Source of the DNA: Carboxylicivirga linearis
GTDB lineage: Bacteria; Bacteroidota; Bacteroidia; Bacteroidales; Marinilabiliaceae
Length of the DNA: 64,000 nucleotides
Direction: 5' to 3'
Assembly: GCF_018271995.1 (NCBI RefSeq)
Contig: NZ_JAGUCO010000001.1
Coordinates: 248,001 to 312,000, forward strand
Made by a program: the position numbers and the translations under genes
In this document: piece by piece, positions 1 through 24,960 of the stretch
How positions within the stretch are numbered: position 1 is the stretch's first letter
How the letters are laid out: the number at the start of each line of letters is the position of its first letter
The notes under the pieces: model-generated
Told to the model about the DNA's origin: nothing
Seen by the model: the letters and a program-made list of their open reading frames with translations, nothing else
The model's database searches: none

Positions 1-352
1 CGCTTATCACCACTAATGGGGTAGAATCAACCATTGCATCAGCAATACCTGTTACGGCATTGGTTGCCCCTGGTCCACTTGTAACAAAGCTTACTCCTAC
101 TTTACCAGTTACTCTCGCATATCCCTGAGCTGCATGAATTGCTCCTTGTTCATGACGAACTAAGACATGATGTAATTTGTCGTTGTAATGATATAGAGCA
201 TCATAAACGGGCATGATGGCTCCTCCTGGATATCCAAACAGTAGGTCAACGCCTTCATGCAATAATGATTGAATTACGGCCTCTGAACCATTCATTCTTT
301 GCTTTTTCATTGGATTTGCTTCCTGTGTTTTTGGTTGCGTTTTTGTTTCCAT
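1..352 (-). CDS. ilvB: Acetolactate synthase large subunit, N-terminal part (cut by window edge)
   Basis: The minus-strand frame opens with ATG at 352 and runs off the left edge, giving about 117 residues. It reads as the N-terminal ThDP-binding domain of acetohydroxyacid synthase. It has the [15 protein letters not shown] stretch near residue 40, the catalytic glutamate context [16 protein letters not shown] near 65-80, and the [14 protein letters not shown] motif near 95. The enzyme condenses pyruvate with pyruvate or 2-ketobutyrate in the first common step of Val, Leu and Ile synthesis. It lies 58 bp downstream of ilvD on the same strand, so both should be one transcript under the attenuator upstream of ilvD. 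A second in-frame Met at residue 15 is an alternative start. The catabolic or anabolic form cannot be settled from the fragment, but the ilvD linkage favours anabolic. Confidence 0.93.
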
Positions 353-410: not shown

Positions 411-2240
411 TTAATCAATTAATCTCACTGCGCCTTTATCAGCCGAGCTTACCAGGCTGGAATAAGCTTTTAATGCTTTTGATATGTTCCTGACTCGGTC
501 ACCAGGCTGAAATGCCTTACTTCCTTTTGCTTCTTCTTCCTTGCGGCGTTGAGTCAGTTCTTCGTCTGAGATATTGAGTTCTATTTTGCGATTTGGAATG
601 TCAATGGTAATTGGGTCACCGTCTTTAACAAGAGCAATAGCTCCGCCTGCTGCTGCTTCGGGAGATGCATGTCCGATAGATAAACCGGAAGTACCTCCAG
701 AGAAACGACCATCGGTTAATAAAGCACACTCTTTACCTAAGTGTTTTGATTTAAGGTATGATGTTGGATAAAGCATCTCCTGCATACCCGGTCCTCCTTT
801 AGGTCCTTCGTAACGGATTATAACTACGTCCCCTGATTTTACTTCATCAGATAAGATACCATCAATGGCATCATCCTGTGATTCATATACACGTGCCGTT
901 CCATTAAAAGTAAAGATGGATTCATCCACACCTGCTGTTTTAACAATACATCCTTTCTCGGCAATATTACCAAACAACACGGCTAATCCACCATCCTGAA
1001 AATAGGCGTTTTCTATATCGCGAATACACCCCTTGGCACGGTCTAAATCCAATTCAGCATATTTGGTTTTTTGCGATCCCATGGTAAGGTTAAACATGCC
1101 GGCTGGTGCACTTGAATACACTTCATAAGCTTCTTCAATGGCAGTGCCTGCAGCAACGTCGTAATCTTTTAAGGCATCACCTAAAGTAGGATAATCAACA
1201 CGACTAACATCGGTATGCAATAAACCGCCTCGATTCAACTCAGCCAAGATTCCTAAAATACCACCAGCACGGTTTACATCTTCAATATGATAATGTGAGT
1301 TTGGAGCCACCTTTGACAATACGGGTGATTTACGCGATAAGCGATCGATATCATCCATGGTGAAATCAACACCTGCTTCGTGCGCTATAGCTAATATATG
1401 CAGTACTGTATTGGTTGATCCGCCCATAGCAATATCCAGGGTCATTGCATTCTCAAAAGCTTTATAAGTGGCAATGGAGCGTGGTAAAACTGAATCATCA
1501 CCATCGCGGTAATGTTTATATGTAATATCAACAATTAAGTCAGCAGCTTTTTCAAACAAGCGTTTTCTGTTCTGGTGTGTTGCAACAATAGTTCCGTTAC
1601 CCGGTAATGCTAAACCTAATGCTTCATTTAAGCAGTTCATAGAGTTAGCTGTAAACATTCCGGAACAAGAGCCACATGTAGGACATGCGTTACGCTCTAC
1701 GGCACTTACTTCCTCATCCGAAACGGTATCGTCGGCCGCCATAACCATAGCATCCACTAAATCTAAGGCTTTATCACCCACTTTACCTGCTTCCATTGGT
1801 CCGCCTGATACGAAAATGGTTGGAATATTTAATCGCATAGAAGCCATTAACATTCCCGGAGTAATTTTATCGCAGTTGCTGATACAAACCATGGCATCTA
1901 CTTTATGAGCATTGGCCATGTATTCAACACTGTCGGCGATAATGTCTCGCGATGGCAAAGAATATAACATTCCGTCATGTCCCATAGCTATTCCATCATC
2001 AATTGCAATGGTGTTGAATTCGGCAGCAAAACAGCCATTAGCTTCAATTCTTTTCTTTACCATTTGACCTATGTCGTGCAAATGCACATGCCCCGGAACA
2101 AACTGGGTAAATGAATTTACAACGGCAATAACCGGCTTACCAAAATGATCTTCCTTCATGCCATTGGCTCGCCAAAGACTGCGGGCTCCGGCCATTCGTC
2201 TTCCTTGGGTTGTTGTTGCGCTTCTTAATATTCGTTTCAT
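411..2240 (-). CDS. ilvD: Dihydroxy-acid dehydratase
   Basis: This is a 609-residue IlvD/Edd family protein. It dehydrates 2,3-dihydroxy-isovalerate and 2,3-dihydroxy-3-methylvalerate to the keto acids that precede Val and Ile. Cysteines at 119 and 123 ([13 protein letters not shown]) and at 186, 189 and 192 ([10 protein letters not shown]) supply the iron-sulfur cluster. The N-terminal [12 protein letters not shown] stretch matches the E. coli-type oxygen-sensitive [4Fe-4S] enzyme, which lacks the Cys found there in [2Fe-2S] types. [14 protein letters not shown] near 510 is the usual C-terminal signature. Length is normal. The start at 2240 fits the conserved N-terminus. ilvB follows on the same strand. 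The leader peptide, terminator and promoter upstream indicate control by attenuation through charged branched-chain tRNAs. Confidence 0.97.
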
Positions 2241-2263: not shown

Positions 2264-2300
2264 AAAAAAAAAGCCTTTCTCTATGCTGTGAGAAAGGCTT
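2264..2300 (-). promoter_or_regulatory. ilv attenuator: intrinsic terminator in the leader of ilvD
   Basis: Read on the minus strand, an 11-bp perfect stem (AAGCCTTTCTC, plus-strand 2271-2281, against GAGAAAGGCTT, 2290-2300) with an 8-nt loop is followed by a run of nine T. It sits 24 bp upstream of the ilvD start, so it would stop transcription before the operon. A competing pairing exists: GTGAGAA, encoded at 2334-2340, can pair with TTCTCAC, encoded at 2288-2294, with two more G-C pairs after one mismatch, and this would destroy the terminator. A third pairing, ATTCTC inside the leader codons with GAGAAT, would free the terminator again. This is the classical 1:2 / 2:3 / 3:4 attenuator layout. 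Confidence 0.88.
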
Positions 2301-2345
2301 AATGATATTTTATATTCAATTAACTATACACCATTCTCACGACCC

Positions 2346-2408
2346 TCAGCTAATAATGACTAAGAGAATAATAATAATATCGAGAACGAGTGTCAAGTTG
2401 AATTTCAT
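2346..2408 (-). CDS. ilvL: ilv operon leader peptide (20 aa, BCAA-rich)
   Basis: A minus-strand ORF reads MKFNLTLVLDIIIILLVIIS then TGA. It has six Ile, five Leu and two Val, so 13 of 20 residues are branched-chain, including four consecutive ATT codons. It begins about 18 nt after the predicted transcription start and ends 46 nt before the terminator hairpin that precedes ilvD. Ribosome stalling at the Ile/Leu/Val codons when the charged tRNAs are scarce would favour the antiterminator. No strong Shine-Dalgarno sequence is visible, which is normal in Bacteroidota. The symbol is by analogy with enterobacterial ilvL; homology is not implied. Confidence 0.88.
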   Translation of the reverse strand: MKFNLTLVLDIIIILLVIIS

Positions 2409-2432
2409 CTTTGCTTGTGCTTTTTACGTTAG

Positions 2433-2463
2433 CAAATGTAGAATTGATTTTGGTAACTCCAAA
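2433..2463 (-). promoter_or_regulatory. Promoter of the ilv leader-ilvD-ilvB operon
   Basis: On the minus strand, TTTG (2460-2463) is followed by 19 nt and TACATTTG (2433-2440). This matches the Bacteroidota primary sigma factor pattern TTTG-N19-TAnnTTTG exactly. The predicted start of transcription is about 2426, just upstream of the leader peptide ATG at 2408. Confidence 0.8.
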
Positions 2464-2502
2464 GAAATAATCAAAAAAAATAGAAAAAAAATTACCATCT
2501 GA

Positions 2503-2702: not shown

Positions 2703-3488
2703 TTAATGTTTGATCGAAATTGTATCCGTACTCAAAGCTAAAAAATCATCAAAAGCTGCCCCAACCTCAACTAACATATCATATTCCGATAGCTTGGGAT
2801 CAATTTTATGCTTAGTTCTTAAGAATACAATGAATGAATCCAGTTTTGGTCCTTCAAGTTTTGTGAAGTACTGTAAGTTATCTCTTGACGTAATTTTATT
2901 GTAAAGAGCGCATTGCTTTTCTTTGGCTAAAGTATTGGCATACTGCTTTTGATCATTGTTTTTAATTTTACTTACCAGGCTCACAATTGAACCAAGTGAA
3001 GTGCCAAAAGTTCCGCTTTCTGCTTTTTGCTCAGCAAGGGCTCCTCTAACATCTATTGTAAATGGAAGTTTGTATTCGCCTGTTTCTAATAAAGGCATAT
3101 TTGCAACTCTACTTCTAAAGGCAGCATATGATCTAAAGTGCACAACATTTACTTCATCCAGTGCGTAAGTTCTTGGGCTTACTCTCAGAATAAGTGTATC
3201 CGTATTCAGATTGTAATCAGTTAATGACCAACTGTTCAAATCGTACCCCATACATCGAAACAAAAGAGTGTCTGTAGTGGATACATCCATTCTAAAAACT
3301 CCATCATTATTGGTTTCTTTACCCAGGCCAGTTTTACTGTTAGCAATAAAGGCAAAAGGAACTGGTGTATTACTGTTTTCCTCCAGAACTTTAGCCAATA
3401 TGCTTTTGTTGGTTTGGGTTTGAGCAATGCCATTGCTAATAACTACTAAGCAAACCGCCAGTATAATATAGATTCTTTTTCCCTTCAT
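2703..3488 (-). CDS. Exported protein with carboxypeptidase-regulatory-like domain (second of a pair)
   Basis: 261 residues with a signal peptide at 1-22 ending ...NGIAQ. Residues about 28-105 look like a CarboxypepD_reg-like beta-sandwich: an ILAKVLEENSNTPVPFAFI opening, then a GVFRMDV strand and a TLLFRCMGYD strand. This domain is common at the N-terminus of Bacteroidota exported and TonB-linked proteins. The motif YALDEVNVVHF closes the domain, as DEV[NV]V does in TonB-dependent receptor plug boundaries, but no barrel follows. The C-terminal 130 residues are helical with no recognised fold. The gene overlaps its upstream paralogue as TAATG, so the two are translationally coupled. Substrate and partner are unknown. 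Confidence 0.75.
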   Translation of the reverse strand: MKGKRIYIILAVCLVVISNGIAQTQTNKSILAKVLEENSNTPVPFAFIANSKTGLGKETNNDGVFRMDVSTTDTLLFRCMGYDLNSWSLTDYNLNTDTLILRVSPRTYALDEVNVVHFRSYAAFRSRVANMPLLETGEYKLPFTIDVRGALAEQKAESGTFGTSLGSIVSLVSKIKNNDQKQYANTLAKEKQCALYNKITSRDNLQYFTKLEGPKLDSFIVFLRTKHKIDPKLSEYDMLVEVGAAFDDFLALSTDTISIKH

Positions 3489-4264
3489 TATTGGTTCGAT
3501 TCGTTCTGATATTGCTTATATAAATACATTACTTTATTGGTAATGGATGTTTCGTTATCTCCTTCATTAAGAGAGATATTTAGGTTGCAATATATTAAAA
3601 AATTGTCCAGCTCCTGACCTTCAAAAGAGGTTATTTTCTGAACCAGTTCTCTGGTTAGACGACTTCTTATCTTATCTTCCTGCACTTGCTTTAGCGATTT
3701 TACTCTTTGTCGTTCTTTTGGGCTCGCATAGTAATAGATAAAGTTGACTGGTTGAAATATGGCTGCAATAATGGGAGGCTTTTCATTATATATTGGTCTG
3801 GCGTGAGCTAAAGAGTCGAAGGGCTTAGTGTTGCGAAATGACGGATCCAACTCCTTTTGTTTTTCACGTATCTCAACTAATTTATCTGTAAATTGATGGT
3901 ATTCTTTAAATGCGGAGACATTCACTTCATCTAATTCATAGTGAATAGGCTGAAGTTTGATTATTTTAATTTCTGAATCCTGATTTAGCAATGAGTCTAA
4001 ATAAATTATTTTAGAGATATAACCAAGTGCTAATACCTTAATGCTATCTCCGGCAGGAAAGTTAACTTTAAATGTGCCCAGTGAATCGCACGCAAACATT
4101 AAGCTGCGTTTGTAACTTCCAACTTGTGTATTGGGAATAGGTTCGTTGCTTTTGGCGTCAACTACCCTCCCGTGAATCCAATTCTCGTATTTATGCTGAG
4201 CATTTATTTGTATGCTTAAAAATAATAGAATATAGATAAGCGTAAATAGTAAATTTATTCTCAT
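3488..4264 (-). CDS. Exported protein with carboxypeptidase-regulatory-like domain (first of a pair)
   Basis: 258 residues, signal peptide 1-22 ending ...QINAQ. It has the same architecture as the gene downstream. A CarboxypepD_reg-like domain (IHGRVVDAKSNEPIPNTQV, then GTFKVNF and IKVLALGYISK) ends at YELDEVNVSAF. A charged helical region of about 140 residues follows (FTDKLVEIREKQKELD..., TRELVQKITSFEGQELDNF). Both paralogues end their shared part with a FEGQELDNFLIYCNLN / LEGPKLDSFIVFLRT stretch, which points to an ancient duplication. The stop codon overlaps the next start by one base. No function is known; envelope location is inferred from the signal peptide. Confidence 0.75.
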   Translation of the reverse strand: MRINLLFTLIYILLFLSIQINAQHKYENWIHGRVVDAKSNEPIPNTQVGSYKRSLMFACDSLGTFKVNFPAGDSIKVLALGYISKIIYLDSLLNQDSEIKIIKLQPIHYELDEVNVSAFKEYHQFTDKLVEIREKQKELDPSFRNTKPFDSLAHARPIYNEKPPIIAAIFQPVNFIYYYASPKERQRVKSLKQVQEDKIRSRLTRELVQKITSFEGQELDNFLIYCNLNISLNEGDNETSITNKVMYLYKQYQNESNQ

Positions 4265-24885: not shown

Positions 24886-24960
24886 GGTGAAAGACCGGTC
24901 TCGAACCGGCGACCTCTGGAACCACAATCCAGCGCTCTAACCAACTGAGCTACAATCACC
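24886..24960 (-). tRNA. tRNA-His (GTG anticodon)
   Basis: The minus strand folds as a cloverleaf. The D-arm GCTCAGTTGGTTAGAGC, the anticodon stem CTGGA-TCCAG with loop TTGTGGT (anticodon GTG), and the T-arm GCCGG-TTCGAGA-CCGGT are all clear. An extra G at 24960 would be the G-1 typical of tRNA-His. The acceptor strands GTGATTG and CTTTCAC pair except for two U-U oppositions at 5-68 and 6-67. CCA is not fully encoded. The terminator follows directly. Confidence 0.93.

Follow-up and report, generated by a model that had tools for sequence, protein, structure and literature searches.

The ilv-leu operon of Carboxylicivirga linearis is preceded by a short reading frame rich in Ile, Leu and Val codons and by competing RNA structures that end in an intrinsic terminator. 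From comparative sequence analysis and folding models, we consider this arrangement to be a ribosome-mediated transcription attenuator controlling the operon, with a probability of roughly 0.9. The element lies on the minus strand upstream of ilvD, within a stretch of 64,000 nucleotides that we refer to as the window and to which all positions refer. Its features are the following.

2433..2463, minus strand: promoter, with TTTG at 2463-2460, a 19-nt spacer and TACATTTG at 2440-2433 (direct reading)
2346..2408, minus strand: leader peptide ORF of 20 codons, MKFNLTLVLDIIIILLVIIS followed by TGA (direct reading and conservation)
2382..2393, minus strand: segment 1, ACACUCGUUCUC, partner of segment 2 in a protecting hairpin (leader fold)
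2364..2369, minus strand: ATTCTC, the segment 1 proposed in the initial annotation (direct reading)
2358..2378, minus strand: control codons Ile11 to Val17, predicted stall sites, with Ile18 footprint-dependent (ribosome-masked folding)
2328..2340, minus strand: segment 2, GUGAGAAUGGUGU, partner of segment 1 or segment 3
2288..2300, minus strand: segment 3, AAGCCUUUCUCAC, 5' arm of the terminator plus two loop bases
2271..2281, minus strand: segment 4, GAGAAAGGCUU, 3' arm of the terminator
2264..2272, minus strand: nine-T tract of the terminator, its first two T within the stem (direct reading)
411..2240, minus strand: ilvD, dihydroxy-acid dehydratase (NCBIfam NF009103.0, 1083.9 bits against a cut-off of 710)
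2..352, minus strand: start of ilvB (acetolactate synthase large subunit), truncated at the window end

Operon, leader peptide and promoter

Following the operon downstream in the same genome, we found the gene order ilvD-ilvB-ilvN-ilvC-leuA-leuC-leuD-cimA-like. The genes ilvB, ilvN, ilvC, leuA, leuC and leuD all scored above their curated cut-offs; the CimA-like gene is a fragment below its cut-off, and the stretch read ends inside it. Reading of 2346-2408 bore out the initial annotation of a 20-codon ORF with six Ile, five Leu and two Val codons, that is, 13 of 20. The leader composition fits the operon, since the ilv and leu genes make Ile, Leu and Val: the products of the operon are the three amino acids composing the leader peptide. 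Among the best 80 of 557 matches, the closest ilvD is that of Marinilabiliaceae bacterium A049 (95% identity), and Carboxylicivirga and allied records show 86-88%.

The promoter proposed initially is present as well. Its TTTG and TACATTTG pair is of the Bacteroidota -33/-7 type, and the motif recurs before other leaders: TAnnTTTG was found in 74 of 80 distinct 90-nt regions preceding the leader ATG, compared with 6.9% of 1,600 mononucleotide shuffles; 52 of those regions carry the complete TTTG-N17-22-TAnnTTTG, which arises in 0.19% of shuffles. In eight of the 14 genus genomes (L014-L016, L018-L021, L023) the -7 box lies 69-88 nt upstream of the leader ATG, and in one (L012) no promoter box was found in the region preceding the ATG. 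Since the promoter location varies among genus mates, the close spacing of promoter and leader in the window is not a genus-wide feature.

Three other candidates in the region were set aside. A sigma-70-like TTGACA-N17-TATTAT (2396-2368) falls inside the leader ORF, and three such sites occur in the region against 2.5 expected; the ORF at 2424-2498 (minus strand) overlaps the promoter and hence lies outside the predicted transcript; and the plus-strand ORF at 2302-2502 is presumed spurious.

Competing RNA structures

The terminator (2271-2300) has a perfect 11-bp stem and an 8-nt loop. Stem and nine-T run are as initially described, but the distance to ilvD, which starts at 2240, is 23 bases and not 24. 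Between 2100 and 2700 we counted two terminator-like sites, which are both strands of this one hairpin, compared with 0.3 +/- 0.5 in shuffles. The competing antiterminator was also correctly recognized, although its extent had been given as seven plus two pairs: GUGAGAA, one U.U mismatch and then GGU make 7 + 3 pairs with the 5' arm of the terminator. Likewise, ATTCTC can pair with GAGAAT as proposed, but the longer and earlier ACACUCGUUCUC serves better as segment 1. It is the segment used in the computed leader fold, which has an energy of -40.9 kcal/mol (z -5.0) and was equalled in stability by none of 200 shuffles.

The pairing energies in the window leader are -20.5 (1:2), -12.5 (2:3) and -16.0 kcal/mol (3:4). 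By folding, once segment 4 is present the terminator prevails in each of the three states computed; therefore the switch would have to be decided during transcription, as a matter of timing. Classical attenuators likewise choose their structure while the transcript is being made.

We also searched the same genome for second attenuators with the pattern AAGCCTTTCTC. This gave nine matches, against four for the reversed pattern; of the nine, two are the arms of this terminator and six were inspected and rejected, and the ninth is on C126.

Conservation of the leader across ilvD loci

We compared 110 ilvD loci, nearly all from Bacteroidales, comprising 30 of the 48 matches among 60 relatives along with the 80 best of 557 confirmed matches in named genomes; the two sets overlap, and together hold 99 distinct upstream sequences. 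By a relaxed criterion (an ATG ORF of 8-45 codons with at least six and at least 38% Ile, Leu or Val, no more than 500 nt upstream), a leader is present at 92 of the 110 loci, 87 of which also show the terminator and the 2:3 pairing. No leader was found by this criterion at 18 loci, some of them with little upstream sequence, and five further loci have a leader without a terminator found within range; the terminator criterion was loosened midway, which reduced the leaders without terminator from 10 to 4, plus L103, excluded for distance. With a stricter criterion (an ATG ORF with at least eight Ile, Leu or Val in 12 codons, no more than 330 nt upstream) a leader was detected in 78 of 96 distinct ilvD loci; dinucleotide shuffles gave one in 50 of 1,920 cases and reverse complements in 5 of 96. 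The leader in the window has 11 such residues in its best 12 codons.

The short ORF, whose conservation in relatives the initial annotation had put forward as its own test, is kept together with the terminator and the 2:3 pairing in 14/14 genus genomes and in 30/30 family loci examined (of 48 matched). The peptide has the form M[KR]FNL[ST]L[IV]L[DN]IIIIL[LV]VII... in all 14 genus genomes. Judging by record titles among the best 80 of 557 matches, leaders are also found in Bacteroides, Phocaeicola, Parabacteroides, Dysgonomonas, Paludibacter, Alistipes, Tannerella and Apibacter mensalis, the last of which we take to be a flavobacterium. The six loci whose titles name Muribaculaceae or one of its genera (L087, L099, L101, L110, L112, L115) showed no leader with a terminator. 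At one locus (L054), the region 300-30 bases upstream of ilvD contains an extra terminator-like hairpin, with a CCTTTCTC arm, between the terminator of the leader and ilvD; perhaps it constitutes a second attenuation step.

Covariation of the competing stems

Compensatory changes in the stems, another point raised initially, were sought in an alignment of 63 non-redundant leaders (with L089 trimmed by hand) and in one of 31 family sequences (with L033 excluded). The terminator shows them, and so does the antiterminator when compared across the order. In the 63 leaders, 98.4% of terminator cells are paired, with 55 both-sided changes, where shuffles give 11.7 +/- 2.8 and slid controls never more than 15; for the antiterminator, 86.1% of cells are paired, with 27 both-sided changes against 8.8 +/- 2.5 in shuffles and a maximum of 13 in slid controls. 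Within the family the antiterminator is near-invariant (81.2% paired, a single both-sided cell), with covariation no higher than in shuffles; in 30 of the 31 sequences its eighth position does not pair. Segment 2 pairs with its own segment 3 at a mean of -16.8 kcal/mol and with foreign ones at -12.6. In 68 of 70 cases the own pairing beats the mean of the foreign ones, a comparison biased towards the own pairing because segment 2 was located through it.

For the 1:2 pairing, paired cells amount to 77.1%, compared with 35-53% in slid controls, and there are three both-sided cells against 2-5, that is, no excess. It is stronger than the mean synonymous codon draw in 47 of 71 leaders, reaching the 5% level or better in 10; the split is 26/29 in the family and 21/42 outside. 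Since the 1:2 pairing beats synonymous draws mainly inside the family, sequence comparison suggests that the four-segment form is likely there, and elsewhere points to a three-segment core. The initial claim that all four classical segments are present is supported within the family, where 1:2 is conserved, and only there.

Two other explanations were considered. The leader might act on translation or on ribosome re-initiation rather than on transcription: in Bacteroidetes, leader genes have been reported to peak in frequency 11-14 bp before genes (PMC4833913). Here, however, the leader stop codon is 105 nt upstream of ilvD, and the terminator that closes the competing structure has a U-tract and is conserved, with the 55 both-sided changes given above, which makes an action of this kind very improbable. 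Alternatively, a constitutive terminator against read-through from the upstream minus-strand genes (2703-4264) could lie by chance next to an AT-rich ORF; intrinsic terminators are common, and AT-rich DNA yields many Ile codons. A conserved promoter stands between those genes and the leader, and the leader, its spacing and its covariation are also conserved, so that coincidence is the least probable reading of all and can practically be dismissed.

Predicted control codons and ribosome-masked folding

The attenuator that we propose would work as follows. Transcription would start near 2430, and the leader would be translated by a ribosome close behind RNA polymerase. A shortage of charged Ile, Leu or Val tRNA would stall the ribosome at about codons 11-17, where it would mask segment 1 and leave segment 2 free; pairing of segments 2 and 3 ahead of the synthesis of segment 4 would then keep the terminator from forming, and the operon would be transcribed. 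With plentiful amino acids, a ribosome at the stop codon would mask segment 2, segments 3 and 4 would pair, and transcription would end upstream of ilvD. With no ribosome, 1:2 would form, giving the terminator by default.

Measured from the first base of the last Ile, Leu or Val codon of the densest stretch, the distance from the control codons to segment 2 has a median of 14 nt in 66 leaders (quartiles 12-15, range 2-17), and the position of the stop codon relative to the first base of segment 2 varies from 9 nt upstream to 21 nt downstream. In terms of a modelled ribosome, this spacing matches what the mechanism needs: a stalled ribosome would just clear segment 2, and one at the stop codon would mask it.

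We then folded the transcript, ending at the terminator loop, with the bases under a ribosome masked. For the leader in the window, 0.15 pairs of 2:3 are predicted when no ribosome is present. Placing the ribosome at any of codons 3-16 raises this to about 10 pairs, codon 17 still allows 8.2, and positions from codon 18 up to the stop leave 0-1.2. Shortening or lengthening the leading edge by 3 nt moves the last permissive codon to 18 or 16, respectively; therefore the status of Val17 and Ile18 depends on the assumed footprint. Accordingly placed by the model, Ile11 to Leu16 are the predicted control codons, Val17 and Ile18 are footprint-dependent, and Ile19 is predicted not to be one. Averaged over 86 loci, some of which are redundant, the model gives 2:3 pair counts of 5.4 without a ribosome, 10.2 with a stall at the core and 0.45 at the stop. 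The core stall exceeds the stop in 86/86 loci, a result partly built into the masking itself, and exceeds the state without ribosome in 73/86.

Comparison with known regulators

A metabolite riboswitch, a T-box or a protein-binding leader could in principle drive the same terminator, the ORF rich in Ile, Leu and Val being incidental; a terminator with a competing structure is, as generally known, shared by all these types of regulator, and there are weak matches to PyrR and Phe_leader below the gathering score. Nevertheless, no Rfam family reached its gathering score (Phe_leader gave 22.5 bits against 55), and conservation was seen in the codons, in how far they lie from segment 2 and in the two competing stems, but in no further structured domain. 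We therefore regard such a regulator as unlikely, if slightly less so than the other alternatives. A search of the leader against Rfam 15, including T-box, amino-acid leaders and riboswitches, gave no match at the gathering score, and permissive thresholds gave no relative. The sole Rfam match reaching the gathering score in the window is a tRNA gene at 24886-24959 (minus strand).

The enterobacterial ilvGMEDA, ilvBN and leu attenuators have a leader peptide rich in the amino acids of the operon and segments 1-4, and sense several amino acids together. The leader described here shares with them the leader-peptide logic, the antiterminator and terminator, and the ilv genes downstream; it differs in its Bacteroidota promoter and in being a single leader for a joint ilv-leu operon, and no relation was found in Rfam. 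A comparative study of 2004 reportedly predicted attenuators in several groups, Bacteroidetes/Chlorobi included. The Corynebacterium ilvBNC attenuator, as described in the searchable text of two papers (PMC11857589, PMC10272879), is similarly a leader or uORF on an ilv operon, in another phylum and with another first gene. Within the same phylum, leader-peptide attenuation has likewise been proposed for amino-acid operons of Flavobacterium psychrophilum, with structured 5' elements before pheA and hisG that have no Rfam hits; in the text that could be searched, no ilv leader is named (PMC9723704). The ilvD motif WRC-18-2 is another structured RNA upstream of ilvD and in some cases has a terminator, but, going by the available text, it is restricted to Veillonella and is a weak riboswitch candidate with little covariation, unlike this leader (PMC8632094).

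In the portions of the literature that could be searched, sORFs of B. thetaiotaomicron are called "reminiscent of leader peptides" (PMC7366714), the word "leader" is absent from the main text of a paper on Bacteroidota his genes (PMC8305728), and authors writing in 2010 stated that, to their knowledge, leader-peptide systems were unshown outside Proteobacteria and Actinobacteria (PMC2965389). We found no description of a Bacteroidales ilvD attenuator in the literature searched, a body that leaves most subscription papers and all supplements outside.

Other amino-acid leaders

Upstream of further amino-acid genes of the same genome, identified by profile match (hisG, trpE, pheA, thrA and metY, the last encoding O-acetylhomoserine sulfhydrylase), we observed other candidate leaders. 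About 280-30 bases upstream of hisG (L207, G000:C93:616566) there are two His-rich leaders in series, MTNCIHHHHHLNLQTR and then MNNKNHHSVHHFHANPQG, each with its own terminator, plain by eye. Two hisG leaders were found in 13/14 genus genomes and in L212, from another genus, and of 16 loci scanned, 14 have two terminators (further loci L208, L209, L211-L221); from sequence, the hisG operon thus appears to be preceded by two putative attenuators in series. A Trp leader, MNLITKNTGWWHHLILSTRS, precedes trpE (L170), and a Phe/Tyr leader with six Phe and three Tyr, MAHNFFYSFYYFFFNRLKEVGTL, precedes pheA (L174), both with a terminator plain by eye. A Thr leader, MIYNLTNTTTTTTTPWGV, precedes thrA (L175), where no terminator was identified by eye.

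The Met-rich leader before metY is the least expected among those of this genome. A uORF with a variable start and a constant Met-rich end (...MM[CY]MMMT.*) is present upstream of metY (L176, L177; L178-L191) in 14/14 genus genomes and contains Cys in 13 of them; weaker variants occur at L190, L193, L195, L196 and L199, and none was seen in most other loci of the 30 examined. The structure that follows has 98.7% of its cells paired in 14 sequences, most pairs being invariant and one having six both-sided cells; it has no U-tract terminator by eye and no Rfam match. The element perhaps senses Met/Cys.

Across the class, a model (R1) built from segment 2 and the terminator gave matches in 61 of 295 genomes. 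Among the 45 matches inspected, six lie before ilvD, seven before leuA, four before ilvB and one each before ilvE, thrA and trpB, the precision being low, since 25 of the 45 precede no recognised amino-acid gene; one locus each of leuA, ilvB, thrA, ilvE and trpB was checked against NCBIfam, and the remaining identities are by N-terminus likeness. Leader-terminator elements were observed before leuA (L124, L126, L130, L149-L151, L159), ilvE (L132), thrA (L129) and ilvB (L135, L140), for example MQTLQIIIIRILLVVLLVPSE before ilvE, MTINNTIITTIITTGIKDGGR before thrA and MKISTKNIISVVVVVS before ilvB.

Implications

In the papers that could be searched, attenuation in Bacteroidota is only mentioned in passing, and no Rfam family matches. 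The present analysis provides quantitative support for classical attenuation in this phylum; the mechanism itself is classical, and the interest lies in the comparative breadth and in what it implies for coupling. The leader ORFs are small genes probably missed by annotation. On balance, we lean towards viewing ribosome-mediated attenuation as a layer of amino-acid control that is both ancestral and general in Bacteroidales, embracing ilv/leu, his (two in series), trp, phe, thr and, upstream of metY, a putatively Met/Cys-sensing uORF that has a conserved RNA structure. If this is true, RNA polymerase and ribosome would need to move jointly at leaders in a phylum that initiates translation without Shine-Dalgarno sequences. 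The mechanism depends on a ribosome following RNA polymerase closely, so leaders of this type would offer a direct test of transcription-translation coupling in Bacteroidota.
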